Positions 3,740 to 23,217 of a DNA stretch of 35,985 nucleotides are shown here, one piece after another; position 1 is the first letter of the stretch, and each line of letters starts with the position of its first letter. The stretch lies in NCBI GenBank assembly GCA_007693595.1, contig REDI01000020.1:1-35985 (forward strand). Reading direction: 5' to 3'. Under the pieces are notes generated by a model. It did not search any database, was not told the DNA's origin, and saw nothing but the letters and a program-made list of their open reading frames with translations. The stretch is from Deltaproteobacteria bacterium (GTDB lineage: Bacteria > Myxococcota_A > UBA796 > GCA-2862545). The position numbers and the translations under genes are program-made.

Positions 3740-5335
3740 ATGGACAATCCCCATGAAGCGGCGGCTCGCGACGCCATCGCGAAGGCGATCACGACGGTCG
3801 TCGTGCTTCTTGTCAGCCTCATCGCGATGAACGCGTTGGTCATCTTGATCATGAGCGATGGGGTCTTCGTCTATGGCTTGGATGATCCTTATATTCACCT
3901 GGCCCTTGCAGAGAATCTCCTACAAGGCACCTACGGCGTGAACCCGGGGGAACACTCCTCTCCCTCGTCAAGCATCTTGTGGCCCCTCTTGCTTGCGCCC
4001 TTTTCCTGGTCTCCGTGGGCGCCGTTGATCATCAACACCGTCGCGGCCTTGGCGCTGGTCGTTGTGTTTGCGAAGATCGGCGTGTTGACTCTACGAGACG
4101 AACGGTACCCCATCGATCCATTGGAACTCACGTTTCTCGTGGCTGCCCTGGTCGTCGCGACCAACCTCATCGGGCTGGTCTTCGTCGGAATGGAGCATGT
4201 GGTTCAGCTGCTGTTCGTGAGCTTGATCGCGTGGGGGCTGCTTCGGATCCTGCACGGCTCAGATGTGCCCGTCTGGCTGCCCCTGGTGATCGCGATGTCG
4301 CCAGGGTGGCGGTTCGAGAATGTGGTAATCAGCGTGGCTGCGGTGCTGTTCTTGTTCTTTCTGGGGAAGACCCGAGCGGCCCTGGCAGGACTCGGGGGTA
4401 TCGTGTTGTTATTTCTGGCCTTCACGGGCTTGATGGTGTCCTTGGGGCTCTCTCCCGTTCCAACATCGGTGCTCATGAAGCTCAGCGCTGGGGGGGACCA
4501 TACGGTGCCGCTCGGCGATAGTATCTTGTGGTCCCTCTACTCCATGACGACGGTGCCAGGGATCATCCTCATCACGTTGATGATTTTTTTGGCGTACTCT
4601 GCGGCGGTCACGCAGGACCGAGTCGTGCGCTGGCTCGCGGTGTTCTCGGGGCTCGCGCTCTTGGGACACGTCGTGTCTGGGAAGTACGGCTGGCTGAACC
4701 GCTACGAGATCTACATGGTGGGTTTTGGGCTAATCATAAGCCTTCACCTTGCCTTTAGGCTCTTCCTTCTTCCCGGGTTCGGCGCGCCAACGGGCAGGCG
4801 CCGTCGGCTCGGAATGTTGGCGATATTGCTGGTCTTGACCACTTGGAGTGGCCCCTACCTCATGAGCTTGGGGCAGATCCCCCTCGCGTCCCGCAACATC
4901 TACCTTCAGCAATGGCAGATCCAGCGGTTTCTCAAGGACTACCACCAGGGCCCGGTGGCGGTCAATGATCTCGGCCTCGTCTCTTATCGATACGATCCCT
5001 ACGTGCTGGACCTCTGGGGTCTGGCATCCAGCGAGGCGGCGTATCTGCGGCGTACCAGCTCTTCGGCGGACTGGATGCGCCATCTTGTCGCGAGGCACGG
5101 CGTCGAGCTGGTCGTCATCTACGATGCCTGGTTCGAAGAGGTGCCCGAAGAATGGGAGCGCTTGGGCGTCTTGCTCATGGAGACCTATCGGGTGAGCGCT
5201 GCAGAAGATAATGTCTCTTTCTACGCGACCTCTATAGAGTCCGCTCCCCGACTTCGGGCCCAGCTTGAGCGGTTCTCGGCTACACTTCCGCAGCGGGCTC
5301 GATTGGAGCTCTCGCAGGCGCATGTCGACCCCTGA
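3740..5335 (+). CDS. GT-C type membrane glycosyltransferase-like protein
   Basis: A 531-residue integral membrane protein with about ten hydrophobic segments. After the first transmembrane helix (about residues 17-39) comes GLDDPYIHLALAENL with paired aspartates D48-D49. An acidic DD/DE pair in the first external loop is the usual catalytic signature of GT-C enzymes that use polyprenyl-phosphate sugars. After the last helix (around residue 370) a soluble C-terminal domain follows, with phrases such as VAVNDLGLVSYRYDPYVLDL that resemble external domains of actinobacterial and deltaproteobacterial GT39-like proteins. The likely role is transfer of a sugar to an extracytoplasmic acceptor; donor and acceptor are unknown. 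The ATG is preceded only by a weak purine stretch (GTGAGAG). Confidence 0.7.
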   Translation: MDNPHEAAARDAIAKAITTVVVLLVSLIAMNALVILIMSDGVFVYGLDDPYIHLALAENLLQGTYGVNPGEHSSPSSSILWPLLLAPFSWSPWAPLIINTVAALALVVVFAKIGVLTLRDERYPIDPLELTFLVAALVVATNLIGLVFVGMEHVVQLLFVSLIAWGLLRILHGSDVPVWLPLVIAMSPGWRFENVVISVAAVLFLFFLGKTRAALAGLGGIVLLFLAFTGLMVSLGLSPVPTSVLMKLSAGGDHTVPLGDSILWSLYSMTTVPGIILITLMIFLAYSAAVTQDRVVRWLAVFSGLALLGHVVSGKYGWLNRYEIYMVGFGLIISLHLAFRLFLLPGFGAPTGRRRRLGMLAILLVLTTWSGPYLMSLGQIPLASRNIYLQQWQIQRFLKDYHQGPVAVNDLGLVSYRYDPYVLDLWGLASSEAAYLRRTSSSADWMRHLVARHGVELVVIYDAWFEEVPEEWERLGVLLMETYRVSAAEDNVSFYATSIESAPRLRAQLERFSATLPQRARLELSQAHVDP

Positions 5336-17069: not shown

Positions 17070-18239
17070 GTGGCGCGTATCATCCAGAAGTATGGTGGAT
17101 CCTCGGTGGCGGATCTGGAGCGGCTCGCCGGCGTCGCGGATCGGGTCTGCCAGGCTCGACGCGAGGGGCACGAGGTCGTGGTCGTGGTGAGCGCGATGGG
17201 CAACACCACCACCGAGCTCTTGTCGCTGGCGAAGGAGCTGAGCGCAGCGCCCGATCGGCGGGAGCTCGACATGTTGGTGAGCGTCGGGGAGCGGATCAGC
17301 ATGGCGCTCCTCGCCATCGCCCTGCGCGAGCGAGGGATCCCCGCGCGCTCGCTGACCGGCTCGCAGGCCGGCCTCGTCACCGATGAGTCTCACGGCGACG
17401 CGCGGGTGGTGGCGGTGCGGCCCGCTCGCTTGCTCGACGTGCTGGGCCGGGGTGAGGTGCCGATCATCGCAGGCTTTCAGGGGGTCAGTCGCGAGCGTGA
17501 GGTCACGACGTTGGGCCGGGGAGGCTCCGACACCACCGCGGTGCTCCTCGCCGCAGCGCTCGATGCGGCTTGGTGCGAGCTCTGCTCCGATGTCGATGGG
17601 ATCTGGAGCGCGGATCCCCGCGTGGTCTCGGCGGCGAAGCGGCTGGAAGCCCTCTCGCTCGACGAGGCGCTCTCCCTGGCGCGGGGCGGTGCCCGTGTGC
17701 TCTTCGAGGATGCGGTCCAGTACGCTCGAGATCAGGGCGTGGAGCTCCGCGCGGTGGCGACCTTTGGGCCCGGTGCCGGCACGCGCTTGACGGTGCAGGC
17801 CCACGAGCCCCTCGGCGCCAAGGCAGTCACGGGCGATGCCCAGCTCGTCAAGGTGCGGCTGGGCGCACTGGATCGCGATGGGGCCATCGAAGCGCTCCGC
17901 GCGGCGGGGGCACGGCTTCGTCGACGGCGGGGCGAGCGCCTCTACGTCGACGTGCGGCACATGCATGGGGCGTCGGTCTCGGCGGTCCACCGCGGCTTGA
18001 CCGTCGAGGGGCCCTGTGCGGTGGTGACGGCGGTAGGTTCGGGTCTTGGCCAGCGACTCTCCGATCTCGAGCGAGGCACGGCGTCGCTGCTCGAGGCGGG
18101 GCTGTGGATCGTCGACCAGGGGGCGGAAGGCGACGTGGCGTGGTGGGAGCTCGACCGCGGCCAGCTCGACCAAGGGGTCGAGGTCGTGCACCGGGTGCTG
18201 GTGCTCGGTCAGCCGACCCCGCTCGAGGCGCAGGGCTAA
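17070..18239 (+). CDS. lysC: Aspartate kinase
   Basis: A 389-residue protein starting at a GTG with GAGAGGG upstream. It phosphorylates L-aspartate, the first step toward lysine, threonine and methionine. The kinase domain shows KYGGSS (7-12, variant of KFGGTS), the SVGERIS loop (71-77), GRGGSDTTA (149-157) and [12 protein letters not shown] (173-184). The C-terminal part (~250-389) should hold two ACT domains for amino-acid feedback. The first is recognisable near [16 protein letters not shown], but the second is short and diverged, ending in [13 protein letters not shown]. Feedback control may therefore differ from the LysC norm. It is 57 bp after a membrane-protein gene and converges on the secreted-protein gene. 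Confidence 0.93.
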
Positions 18240-18283: not shown

Positions 18284-19123
18284 CTAGTAGATCTCGAAAG
18301 AACGCAGCACGATCCGGTGCCGCGCGCGGAGCTCGGGGAGCTGGGAGCCTGTGCTGTCGCGCAGTCGGATCGCGCTGATCCTCGCCGAGTCGAGAGCAGG
18401 CCAGCTCGGATCTAGAGGCTCAAGCTCTTGAATCGGAACCTCCCACAGACGGGGCGTGGCGTCGATCCGGTACAGCTTGCCGGATAGGGCGTAAGCGAAG
18501 CCTCGTTCATCCTCGACGATGAGCTCCATGAGGGCGTTGTCGTCCTCGGCGTGGAGCTCGATCCGGACCCCGCTCGGGGCACGCTCGGGTTGGTCGACAG
18601 CAACGATCAGATCGGCGACCTGGGGGCCGGCGATCTCTTGAGACCAGACCAGCGCCCCCTGGCCTTCGCGGGTCTCGAGGGCCATCGAACCCCGCTCCGA
18701 GAAGAGCACGAAGCCTTCCTCGGAGCGCTCGAAGGTCCAGCGGGTGGGGACCTCGCGGATGGCCCCTTGCTCCAAGGCGACCTGTCGCGCACCGGCCGCG
18801 CAGGCCGAGGTGTCGATGTCGGCGATCCCCGCCGTGCTCAGCCGCCGACAGGCCTCGAAGGCTTTGCGCGCTTCGTCGAGATCTCCGAGGGCCCGCAGGG
18901 CACGCCCGGCCGCGAGCATGGCGCGCGCGCGGAGCTCGGCGTGTTGGGGGGCGTCGAGCTGAGTGGCGAGATCGCGGTAGATCTGCACCGCTTGACGGTG
19001 ATCACCGCTCGAAGACTGCAGGAGCTGCGCATCCCAGTACCGCCGCTCGGGCGAGGGGGCGTCGGGGGTGGCCCACGCGCTGCTCGCCAGGACGCACGCG
19101 CCGATGACGAGCGCGGATCTCAC
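18284..19123 (-). CDS. Secreted protein with TPR-like and beta-rich domains, coupled to the response regulator
   Basis: A 279-residue protein with a signal peptide ([18 protein letters not shown], cleavage probable after A18). Residues ~28-110 form two or three TPR-like helical hairpins (AELRARAMLAAGRALRALGD, LDEARKAFEACRRLS). Residues ~120-279 are beta-rich with repeated WTFERSEEGFVLF-like strands and an SARISAIRLRD stretch that recalls jelly-roll carbohydrate-binding (CIA30/CBM-like) folds; this call is tentative. The GTG start overlaps the stop codon of the response regulator (GTGA), so its synthesis is tied to the two-component pair. It is probably exported across the inner membrane. It may feed a signal to, or act as output of, the kinase; this is inference. 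Confidence 0.75.
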   Translation of the reverse strand: MRSALVIGACVLASSAWATPDAPSPERRYWDAQLLQSSSGDHRQAVQIYRDLATQLDAPQHAELRARAMLAAGRALRALGDLDEARKAFEACRRLSTAGIADIDTSACAAGARQVALEQGAIREVPTRWTFERSEEGFVLFSERGSMALETREGQGALVWSQEIAGPQVADLIVAVDQPERAPSGVRIELHAEDDNALMELIVEDERGFAYALSGKLYRIDATPRLWEVPIQELEPLDPSWPALDSARISAIRLRDSTGSQLPELRARHRIVLRSFEIY

Positions 19124-19821
19124 CCTTCTTCGCCGATGAAGCGGTAGCCTACGCCGTGCATGGTCTCGATGAAGCGAGGCGAGGCGGCGTCGTCGCGCAG
19201 CTTCTTGCGCACGTTGAGGATGTGCGTGTCGACGGTGCGTGTCGTGACGTTGGGCGAGTAGCGCCAGATGCTCGTGAGCAGTTCTTCGCGGGGGAGGACC
19301 TTGCCGCGGTTCTCGATGAGGTAGCGCAGCAGCTCTTGCTCGCGGTTCGAGAGCCGCTCTTCGTCGCCGGCACCATGGCGGATCGCGTAGTTGTCGAGGT
19401 CGACCTCGATGTGGCCGAAGCGGTAGATCGACCGGGCGCCGCCGGTCCGACGGAGCACGGCGTTGACCCGCGCCGCGAGCACAGGCATCGAGAAGGGCTT
19501 GGTGACGAAGTCGTCGGCGCCGAGGTTGAAGCCCTTGAGCTTGTCATCGTCGGAGGTGCGTGCGGTGAGGAAGAGCACGGGGCCGCGGTAGCCCTCGTCG
19601 CGCAGCGCCTTGCAGACATCGAAGCCATCGTGCTCGGGCTCTGGCCCCTCGTTGAGCATGACGTCGAGGACCAGCACGTCGGGCGGGAAGCGGTGGGCGA
19701 GATCGAGGGCCTCGGTGCGGCTGCGCGCGGTGTAGACATCGAAGCTCTCGCGCTCGGTGAAGTAGCGCTGCAGCATCTCGCTCACCGCCAGCTCATCTTC
19801 GACAAATAGGATTCTAGCCAT
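19120..19821 (-). CDS. OmpR-family response regulator
   Basis: A 233-residue protein: receiver domain (residues 1-120) plus winged-helix DNA-binding domain (about 130-230). Receiver residues are E8-D9, phosphoacceptor D53 in VLDVML, T86 in LFLTAR and K108 in FVTKPF. Between D53 and the following DG (residues 65-66) there are five more residues than in OmpR: the loop reads [11 protein letters not shown]. The effector domain has [20 protein letters not shown] and [15 protein letters not shown], standard for the family. It starts within the last codons of the kinase gene (8-bp overlap) and its stop overlaps the start of the secreted-protein gene. Targets are unknown. Confidence 0.95.
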
Positions 19822-21892
19822 GGGATGTTGCTCCTCCGCCGTCTCGGGCGGTCAGCGGGAGGTGGACCGTGAAGGTTGTGCCGCCGCCGGGGGTGGGTTC
19901 GGCTGTGATGCGACCGCCGTGGGCCTCTACAATGTATCGCACGATCGTCAGCCCGATGCCGGTGCCTTTGCAGCGACGAACGCGGGGGTCGGCAGAACGG
20001 TAGAAGTCATCGAAGATCCGGTTGCGATCCTCGGGCGCGATCCCGATCCCGCGATCGCGCACCCGAAGCTCCAGCGCCTGTCCGGTGTGGCGCGCCTCGA
20101 CGCCGATCCACTTGCCCGAGGCGCCGTACTTCACGGCGTTCGACAGCAGGTTGATGAGCACTTGACCGATCGCGTCGCGATCGATCCACACGACCGGCAG
20201 GTCGTCGGGTAGATCCAGCTCCAGGGTCATGCCGGCGCCCTCAATGTTCGCTCGGCTGGTCTCGACGGCTGAATGGATGAGCACCACGGGGTCCTCGGGT
20301 CGCATGGTGTAGCGCTTGGCCCCGCGCTCGATGGCGGCGAAGTCCAGCACGTTGTCGACCAGTCGAGACAGGCGCTCCGCCTCGCGCACGATAGCGTCGT
20401 ATTGGGCGCGCCGGTCGTCATCGTCGCGGATCAGATCGAGCTGGAGCGCCTCACCCTTGAGTCGGATCTGGGTGATGGGAGACCGGAGCTCGTGTGAGAC
20501 GTTGGCTGCGAAGTCGGTCTTGATGCGCGCCGACTCGAGCTCGTTGAGGACGTAGCGCACGGTGACCCCCACCCCGATGACCGACGTCGCGATCGCGAGC
20601 AGGACGATCGCGATACGGGTGGCGGCTCGGCGACGGCGAGCCTCGGTCAGACCTTCGGGATCCGCCGCGCTCACCTGGACTTCGAAGCCGGGGAGGTGGT
20701 CGAAGGCGCGTCGGAACACGGTCGGGCCCATCGGGCTGCCATCTTGGAGCCGGATCTCGGAGACCAGATCGGCCTTGAGCTCCGAGAGGCGATCGGCGGA
20801 CCGCTGAAGCGACTGGAGGATCTCGTCGCGATCGAAGGCGTAGACGATGAGGTCCTGACCGGATCGTCGGAAGGCCCACAGGGCCGGCGAGTTCGGATGG
20901 GTGCGGTAGGTGGTGCCGGCCTCGGTACCGACTCCGCGGTCGACGAGCTCCGCCAGCTCGTCGAAGAGGTAGCCTGACCAATAGAGCTGCGCGTCTCGGC
21001 GATCCAAGCTGCGTCGGGTGCGAGAGAGCCAGTCGGGATCGATGCTGCCCCCCGTGCGCCGGATCGTCTCGAGCTTCGAGAGCGCGCGTCGCGCGACGGT
21101 GGGCTCCCCACCTTCGAAGAGCACCCAGCGGGACCCCATGAGCATGTCGACCAGCTCTCGCAGGGCCAGGGCGCCATCGGGAGAGCGCCCGGCCGCGAGC
21201 TCGGCCTGGTTGAGACGCGCGACGTCGCCGATCCGAAAGCCTCGGCTATCGCGGAGCGCCCCGTAGTCTCCGATCACGTCGGCGTAGGTGTAGGCGCCGA
21301 CCCCGAGCACGCCGTAGAGCCTCGCTTGGTGGAGACGGGCTTCGCCGCTCAGCCGCGCAGAAGTCGTCTGCTGGGCCGCCTCGGCATAGCGCTCGGCGGC
21401 CTCGGCGAGCTCGCCCCGTTGTTCCGCATGGATGGCGCGCTGCATCGCGCGCTCGAAGGCGGGAGTCAGCTCGGCGGGGTCCTCGCTGAGGGGAAGGTCG
21501 AAGGGCTCGACCAGCGAGGTTCCACCTTGGAGCTGATAGGCTGCGATGAGGTGTGGCGAGAGCTCATCGAGGCCGTTGACAGGGGACTGGTTGCGGAGCA
21601 GGCGGCGATCCACCGCCGTCTCGAAGGTTCCGAAGATCTCGCGCTCCTCATCGAGGATCTGCTGGACCAGCCCGCGCCCTTCCGGCGCGAGATCAGCCTC
21701 GATGGAGGTCGCGCCATCGCTCGTGCTCGCGAGCGCGAAGTAGGCGAGCAAGGCGACAGGTGCGACGATCAGCAGGCCGAACACGCCGACCAAGCGGGTG
21801 GCGCGGAGCAGCTGGCGCCCCTCATGCTCGGAGCGCACCTTGAGCAGGCGCGCGATAAAGCGGATCAGGCGGGGGCTGCGGCGAGAGCTCAA
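19814..21892 (-). CDS. Membrane sensor histidine kinase with large periplasmic domain
   Basis: A 692-residue kinase. The start is a TTG at 21892 with GGAG 5 nt upstream; no nearby ATG or GTG fits as well. Transmembrane helix 1 is at about 34-55 and helix 2 at about 425-448, enclosing a ~370-residue periplasmic domain. This domain includes helical TPR-like stretches ([21 protein letters not shown], residues ~149-169) and a C-terminal PAS/Cache-like segment near [20 protein letters not shown]. The cytoplasmic part has HisKA with [16 protein letters not shown] (phospho-accepting H467), the N box [14 protein letters not shown] (N585), G1 box [10 protein letters not shown] (613-622), F box IFDDFYRS and G2 box GTGIGLTIV (643-651). 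All catalytic elements are intact. It overlaps the response regulator by 8 bp. Confidence 0.95.
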
Positions 21893-22053: not shown

Positions 22054-22341
22054 CTACTTAGGTGGCTTGGGCGCCTTGGTCTCGAGGGCCTCGGTCACCG
22101 AGGGCTGCGCGCTGCAGGCCAGGGAGTTGTCGTTGTTGAGACGACACAGCATGAGCTTGCCCTTGGTGCTGAAGCAAAGACCGCCGGCTCCCATGCAGTT
22201 GCCTTCCCAATAACCAAGGTAGTATTGGCTACGACCTTCGAGGTCCCACTGGTCGGCGGTGATGGTGTGAACGATGCTGGTGCAACCAGCGCTGGCGAGC
22301 GCGATAGCACCGATCAGAACGAATTTGGTCCAGTTCATCAT
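22054..22341 (-). CDS. Small lipoprotein 4 of a four-gene cassette
   Basis: A 95-residue precursor starting at one of two adjacent ATGs (MMNWTKF). The lipobox is ASAGC with lipidated C20. The mature part carries C49, C56 and a cysteine pair C66-x9-C76 within LMLCRLNNDNSLAC, which echoes the other three lipoproteins. The extra C49/C56 could form a second disulfide. The C-terminal tail is lysine/proline-rich (ETKAPKPPK). It starts 1 nt after the stop of lipoprotein 3, so the two are surely cotranscribed. It lacks an Asp at +2 (C-T-S), so export to the outer membrane is possible. Function unknown. Confidence 0.85.
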   Translation of the reverse strand: MMNWTKFVLIGAIALASAGCTSIVHTITADQWDLEGRSQYYLGYWEGNCMGAGGLCFSTKGKLMLCRLNNDNSLACSAQPSVTEALETKAPKPPK

Positions 22342-22342
22342 G

Positions 22343-22615
22343 TCAGTGCCCCGAGGAGTAGTAGTCGATGACCAATACGCTGTCGAGGACGAGGGTCGTC
22401 TTGCAGTTCGCAGTCTGACCATTATCGACATCGCAGATTTGAAGGTAGTAGTTGACGGTCTGTGCGTCGCCGGACGAGATGCCGACCTGCGCTTGCGTCG
22501 CACGCACCAGCTTGTCCGTCTGGGGGATGAAGTAGCTGTCGATGAGGTATCGCGGGGAGCAGGCTCCAAGAAAGACCAGCATCGAGGCCGCCAGGCCAAG
22601 TCTTGTGATGTTCAT
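22343..22615 (-). CDS. Small lipoprotein 3 of a four-gene cassette
   Basis: A 90-residue precursor from the ATG at 22615, with AAGGAGG 6 nt upstream. The lipobox is LGAC with lipidated C19. The mature domain has the cassette signature C61-x9-C71 (QICDVDNGQTANC), followed by a hydrophobic strand (TTLVLDSVLVIDYY). It is flanked by lipoprotein 2 (stop 11 nt upstream of its start) and lipoprotein 4. No family is recognised. Confidence 0.88.
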   Translation of the reverse strand: MNITRLGLAASMLVFLGACSPRYLIDSYFIPQTDKLVRATQAQVGISSGDAQTVNYYLQICDVDNGQTANCKTTLVLDSVLVIDYYSSGH

Positions 22616-22626
22616 GAGGGGCCTCC

Positions 22627-22911
22627 TTAGAACCAGTTGGAGCGGCAACGGATGCGGTCACCTTCTTCGTTGTTGACGTTGCAGGTCCGGACGCAGTCGA
22701 GGATGTCGCCGTCCTTGCCGCATTCGTAGTACACCATTTGGATGTGGGGGAACACGGCGTACCAGGTGGTCTCGCGCACCTGGAGGATGGTGGTGGCCTG
22801 GCCGGAGGCGGTCGCGACGGGCGTGTCTTGCACCCCCAAGACGTAGCGCAGCGTGCAGCCGGAGCTCCCGAAGAGGACCGCGCCGAGCAGCAGAGGAATC
22901 ATGTGCTTCAT
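22627..22911 (-). CDS. Small lipoprotein 2 of a four-gene cassette
   Basis: A 94-residue precursor. The signal peptide ends in the lipobox GSSGC (C19). The mature part includes ETTWYAVFPHIQMVYYECGK and the cassette signature C64-x8-C73 (ECGKDGDILDC), then C77 and C89 near the C-terminus, which could pair. The GDG turn between the cysteines matches the DG or NG of its neighbours. It begins 9 nt after the stop of lipoprotein 1. Function unknown. Confidence 0.88.
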   Translation of the reverse strand: MKHMIPLLLGAVLFGSSGCTLRYVLGVQDTPVATASGQATTILQVRETTWYAVFPHIQMVYYECGKDGDILDCVRTCNVNNEEGDRIRCRSNWF

Positions 22912-22920
22912 GGGTGGCTC

Positions 22921-23154
22921 CTAGGGCTTGCGGAAGGAGATGGCGAGGTTCTTGCAGTTCGAGAGGGTGCCATCTTCGGCGCGGTCGCACTCGACGACGC
23001 CGGTCTCGGCAACAAAGATCCTCTGCTTGAAATAGGCGATCTTGGCGTGAGACGGTGCCAGGGTGATGTCGGTGACGACACGAGGCCAACAGCCCGCGCT
23101 CAGACCCATGACGCCGACAAGCAGCGCAGCGGTGATCGGTCGCGCTCTAATCAT
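22921..23154 (-). CDS. Small lipoprotein 1 of a four-gene cassette
   Basis: A 77-residue precursor from the ATG at 23154, with GGAGG 5 nt upstream. The lipobox is LSAGC (C22) followed by W. The mature part has the signature C56-x10-C67 (ECDRAEDGTLSNC), followed by a strand NLAISF. It is the first gene of the cassette and lies just downstream of a strong promoter match (23189-23217). The frame is open further upstream, but that extension has no ribosome-binding site and would bury the signal peptide. Confidence 0.88.
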   Translation of the reverse strand: MIRARPITAALLVGVMGLSAGCWPRVVTDITLAPSHAKIAYFKQRIFVAETGVVECDRAEDGTLSNCKNLAISFRKP

Positions 23155-23188: not shown

Positions 23189-23217
23189 ACTTTACGGGAG
23201 GCGTCCGACAGGGTCAA
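23189..23217 (-). promoter_or_regulatory. Sigma-70-type promoter of the four-lipoprotein operon
   Basis: On the minus strand TTGACC (23217-23212) is separated by exactly 17 nt from TAAAGT (23194-23189). Both boxes are one or two bases from consensus, and the first gene starts about 30 nt beyond the expected transcription start. This is the best-formed promoter in the window after the rrn promoter. Confidence 0.65.

Follow-up and report, generated by a model that had tools for sequence, protein, structure and literature searches.

A conserved cassette of four small lipoproteins that may form a hetero-oligomer on the outer membrane

In BamB, a lipoprotein that belongs to the BAM complex, one chain carries the whole β-propeller. 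Oligomeric propellers have been obtained by engineering, e.g., with WRAP and PkwA fragments (PMC6805158). The single blades that were tested in the laboratory failed to fold alone, and the engineering of propeller blades has given homo-oligomers only (PMC6805158). Four-stranded meanders are found outside propellers as well, namely in β-prisms and in the luminal domain of IRE1 (PMC6805158). In the literature searched, no natural hetero-oligomeric propeller made of single blades is described, and neither is the gene cassette that is the subject of this analysis.

This cassette is located on the minus strand of contig REDI01000020.1, of which the whole stretch of 35,985 nucleotides that was analyzed is called the window. 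It consists of four intact open reading frames that are separated by 9, 11 and 1 nt, i.e., G1 (22921..23154, stop included; 77 aa, family A5), G2 (22627..22911; 94 aa, family A6), G3 (22343..22615; 90 aa, family A7) and G4 (22054..22341; 95 aa, family A8). All four encode lipoproteins with a lipobox and all four have orthologues, those of G1 being found with the cassette in 27 genomes. The coordinates, lengths and motifs in the original prediction, which had described genes of 77, 94, 90 and 95 codons spaced by 1 to about 11 nt with a lipobox on every protein, are correct. In G1, the signal peptide (23089..23154) has the lipobox LSAGC at its end, with Cys22, the predicted lipidation site, being invariant in 19 sequences, and the lipobox Cys of the other three proteins is likewise invariant in the family alignments. 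Compared to relatives from the same genus, G1 to G4 show an amino acid identity of 51–59%. The genes are real, as illustrated by dN values that are well below the dS values in each of them (dN and dS against a same-genus relative are 0.32 and 1.08 for G1, 0.35 and 0.66 for G2, 0.40 and 1.15 for G3, and 0.38 and 0.79 for G4); for G1 the ratio is about 0.3. A candidate σ70-like promoter, TTGACC-N17-TAAAGT (23189..23217, minus strand), is present 35 nt upstream of G1, with 0.2 such sites expected in the shuffled region; it matches the consensus at 9 of 12 positions, which is not evidence of function. One promoter for the set is thus plausible, whereas the claim that it is a strong one finds no support.

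The predicted C-x8 to x10-C signature is present in all four proteins. It corresponds to C56-x10-C67 in G1 (CDRAEDGTLSNC; 22954..22989), to C64-x8-C73 in G2 (CGKDGDILDC; 22693..22722), to C61-x9-C71 in G3 (CDVDNGQTANC; 22403..22435) and to C66-x9-C76 in G4 (CRLNNDNSLAC; 22114..22146), all on the minus strand. G2 carries a second pair, C77-x11-C89 (CNVNNEEGDRIRC; 22645..22683, minus strand), of which C77 is invariant and C89 is found in most sequences, and G4 has additional cysteines at C49 and C56. In each protein, the mature part, which mostly has about 55–80 residues, begins almost directly past the lipid anchor and the Cys pair is located late in it. Invariant columns are few in the family alignments. 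In each of the four families they include the lipobox Cys and both cysteines of the pair; G2 has a third invariant Cys in addition, and G4 a few further residues. The mature parts mostly have lengths of 52–61 residues for G1, 75–85 for G2, 61–90 for G3 and 61–100 for G4. The spacing of the pair varies from x8 to more than x20, the latter in some G3 proteins of family f15. Some members from this family have long acidic tails or inserts in the mature part; its G2 proteins (L064, L066, L070 and L113) have long acidic or Glu-rich C-terminal tails that are absent elsewhere. According to the sorting rule of E. coli, lipoproteins without Asp at position +2 go to the outer membrane. None of the 91 cassette proteins tallied has Asp at this position, and by this rule they would be sorted to the outer membrane.

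A search with G2 among 38 relatives gave strong matches in four other genomes, and in each of these loci the same four lipoproteins are encoded in unchanged order. Family profiles were built from five sequences and later from 16–19 sequences per family, and were scanned over 377 genomes of the phylum. With the scan tables tallied together, the complete set, adjacent and in the order 1-2-3-4, is present in 27 of the 377 genomes, spread over seven families (f1, f14, f15, f23, f26, f36 and f55); co-occurrence in the same order elsewhere had originally been proposed as a check. The spacing between the genes of a cassette ranges from −7 to 41 nt in all genomes. In two genomes (G097 and G152) the set is interrupted by contig ends, and two f15 genomes (G162 and G206) have a second cassette besides the standard one. 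Contig ends aside, none of the genomes that were searched has the set divided into intact pairs. The pattern lies far beyond chance, given that 27 genomes share these genes in an identical order and that the lipobox Cys and the Cys pair are invariant in every family. Outside the phylum, coverage consisted of a pattern scan of genome contigs with a narrow G4 alignment and of one tblastn search of plasmids with a G3 protein as query, the latter giving no match.

Members of the set do occur separately in a few places. In two genomes of a single f16 genus, a lone G1-like lipoprotein of 78 aa with a C-x10-C pair is encoded (L118 2926-3162 in genome G090; L119 3251-3487, minus strand, in genome G207), the other three genes being absent; it was found in none of 50 other genomes of the class that contains this genus. 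This protein is possibly a homo-oligomeric cousin of the cassette proteins. In genome G009 (L063, about 4839-5252), G4 is intact, of G3 a C-terminal fragment is left next to it, and G1 and G2 were not found; this locus is apparently an eroded cassette. Unrelated predicted folds, or single homologues lacking the Cys pair, had been named beforehand as findings that would refute the proposal. Only minor cases of this kind were found: the f16 protein stands alone but retains the pair, and genome G009 has its G4 next to a G3 fragment.

In the window, the cassette is flanked by genes for an acyl-CoA dehydrogenase and a histidine kinase. The kinase gene belongs to a response regulator and sensor histidine kinase pair (19120-21892) that is encoded on the strand of the cassette and begins 162 nt downstream of G4; this pair was not found adjoining other cassettes. 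An aspartokinase-like gene is found near the cassette in three genomes, i.e., at 17070-18239 in the window, downstream in L071 and upstream in L073. As its position and orientation differ, this is probably a coincidence. Neither the histidine kinase nor the aspartokinase was retained as a partner gene, since their position is not constant. A search for a conserved partner gene beside the cassettes yielded flanking genes common to close relatives only. The flanks change from genome to genome, indicating that the cassette is self-contained.

In three loci (L108, L111 and L112), G3 and G4 form a single open reading frame of about 174–190 aa that has a single signal peptide and retains the Cys-pair domains of both proteins. 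Genome G112 has this fusion, and so do the two f15 genomes mentioned above, which carry it in their second cassette (L111 and L112) besides the standard set. Two genera are represented, both from family f15, and the fusions may go back to one event. Gene fusion is accepted as indirect evidence for contact between proteins that are otherwise separate, and the fused gene therefore suggests contact between G3 and G4.

To determine how the four proteins are related, their family profiles were compared. Since the comparison of full-length profiles is inflated by the signal peptides, it was redone on the mature parts alone, with 60 column shuffles in which the Cys columns were held in place as a control. 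The matches G1-G3 (E = 4.9e-5), G1-G4 (5.3e-4) and G3-G4 (1.4e-3) score above all 60 shuffles. This is also the case for G2-G3, a match that spans just 18 columns, whereas the G1-G2 and G2-G4 matches are not beyond the shuffles, 3 and 12 of the 60 reaching their score, respectively. In whole-genome scans, where cross-family scores may be raised by signal peptides, six genomes show a match of the G1 profile to the G4 gene of their own cassette (9.5e-6 to 0.0097), and the G4 profile matches G3 (3.5e-4), in four f14 genomes, as well as G1, these matches likewise falling within the cassette. G1, G3 and G4 thus have a common ancestry, and the duplications of their ancestral domain predate the split of the phylum into families. 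G2 probably shares this ancestry, being joined to the others mainly by its predicted structure. Of the diverged tandem duplicates that were originally proposed, three are therefore clear and the fourth is weaker. The equivalence of the cysteines in G2 is less straightforward than assumed in that proposal, as the profile alignment pairs the second Cys pair of G2, and not the first, with the pair of G3, while in the model of G2 it is the first pair that occupies the equivalent hairpin of strands 3 and 4.

Models of G1, G2 and G4 give an indication of the fold. G1 and G2 share one reading frame in the window, so that a fused model could be made by reading the stop codon of G1 as Gln. For mature G1 plus G2, AlphaFold2 with 11 aligned rows reached a pLDDT of 82.7 and a pTM of 0.73. 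Both parts are predicted to fold as antiparallel meanders of four strands, the last two of which are spanned by the Cys pair (strands 3 and 4; model strands 28-37 and 43-54 for G1, and 114-127 and 130-136 for the first pair of G2). The two parts pack like neighboring β-propeller blades, a packing that may be biased toward a propeller-like pair, as the linker is a signal peptide and the alignment is shallow and unpaired. G4 modeled alone has a pLDDT of 67 and shows three strands plus helices, its Cys pair spanning the last two strands (36-49 and 55-59, with low confidence). The common hairpin stapled by cysteines that was originally predicted is thus seen in the models of G1 and G2 and, with low confidence, in that of G4. 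Lactonase-type propeller blades have a similar hairpin. Shared ancestry with these blades was considered and not retained, as the match is not clearly above shuffles. In Foldseek and VIA-align comparisons, the best matches of the G1-G2 model are mostly adjacent blade pairs of β-propellers, among them PON1, GH43 enzymes, levansucrase, Nup159, DDB1 and sialidases, with a VIA Z of up to 8.8, an rmsd of about 3–5 Å over about 100–120 residues and a Foldseek E of 0.06. For models that lack a clear match, a Z of 8–9 is close to background, and the likeness to propeller blades is suggestive only. For the G4 model, Foldseek returned noise only.

None of the four proteins could be assigned to a described family, in agreement with the earlier remark that the family was not recognized. 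In Pfam and NCBIfam nothing scores above cut-off for G1 to G4, and in Pfam nothing credible was found for members of A5 and A7, propeller families being absent in both cases. PDB sequences gave no credible match for A5 and A7, and a search of a viral library gave no match with E < 0.001. The YgdI/YgdR lipoproteins (NF033216) score 12.4 bits against G2, with a curated cut-off of 42, and the J517_1871 lipoproteins (NF045606) score 17.3 bits against G4, with a curated cut-off of 60. Both are families of small lipoproteins like those of the cassette, and the weak matches are confined to the N-terminal half. Membership of either family was rejected, as the scores are far below the curated cut-offs.

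Taken together, it is moderately probable that the four proteins are non-interchangeable subunits of a fixed hetero-oligomer of blade-like lipoproteins on the outer membrane. This reading is based on the nearly all-or-none occurrence of the set, its constant order, the G3-G4 fusion, the thin, anchored predicted sheets and the failure of the single blades tested in the laboratory to fold alone (PMC6805158). The hetero-oligomer that was originally proposed is thereby supported indirectly, by the near all-or-none set, the conserved order and the fusion in two genera. The lone f16 lipoprotein counts against it, as this shows that the domain is not confined to the set, and so do the G4 model, which is not a clear blade, and the unconvincing sequence relation of G2 to G1 and G4. 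A narrower form of the same reading is a naturally split propeller, in which each lipoprotein would be one separately lipidated, disulfide-locked blade of a closed hetero-oligomeric ring of four, or of eight with two copies of each, lying flush with the outer membrane and having its lipid anchors on one face. The mature domains have the size of a blade, the G1-G2 model resembles two consecutive blades (VIA Z up to 8.8), and the four distinct genes in fixed order with a G3-G4 fusion would fit; moreover, blades that do not fold alone would explain why the set is all-or-none (PMC6805158). However, the Z is near background with a Foldseek E of only 0.06, the G4 model is not a blade, neither a Pfam propeller family nor a link to lactonase-type blades beyond shuffles was found, and engineering attempts have yielded homo-oligomers only (PMC6805158). 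This closed ring is possible but rather unlikely.

Instead of a ring, the subunits might form a layered β-sandwich, or else pair up as G1-G2 and G3-G4 heterodimers. The fusion and the G1-G2 model indeed concern one such pair each, and four-stranded meanders are not unique to propellers (PMC6805158), but intact separate pairs are absent from the searched genomes, contig ends aside. This arrangement is rather unlikely, too. That the four lipoproteins act independently and are kept together merely through shared expression is quite improbable. As a rule, paralogues that act independently vary in both copy number and arrangement, whereas this set is ordered and nearly all-or-none across seven families, with two members fused in two genera; the divergent sequences, the extra cysteines or acidic tails of single subunits and the lone f16 protein are what such a view could explain. 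Lastly, the invariance of the Cys pair in all four families would also suit a redox or metal site instead of a structural staple. This is very improbable indeed, as the spacing is variable, a CxxC motif is lacking, no His or Asp beside the pair is invariant across all families, and the pair spans a hairpin in the models.

In the fixed hetero-oligomer, the preferred reading, the four mature sheets would be thin, with little hydrophobic core of their own, and would pack against one another. The hairpins would be disulfide-bonded by their Cys pairs, and several lipid anchors would hold the assembly flat on the outer membrane. By analogy with β-propeller lipoproteins, it might work as a scaffold or binding platform. 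A cassette that stays complete and ordered over seven families must serve a specific role in the envelope. It is covered by none of the family models searched and the complex would be previously undescribed, offering a clean system to study a repeat-unit protein that evolves as separate, diverged subunits instead of as one chain. If the propeller reading is true, the cassette would encode a naturally occurring hetero-oligomeric propeller composed of single blades.

Compared to known systems, the cassette proteins would resemble β-propeller blades in the blade-sized, four-stranded antiparallel meander predicted for G1 and G2, in the predicted packing of these two as consecutive blades and in the expectation that the unit needs partners. 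They differ in being separate lipid-anchored gene products that match no propeller family in sequence. The engineered WRAP and PkwA oligomers are built from identical units, whereas four diverged units are found here (PMC6805158). Like BamB, the cassette proteins are lipoproteins, and they are possibly propeller-like and part of an outer-membrane scaffold, but BamB carries a whole propeller on one chain, whereas four chains are present here.
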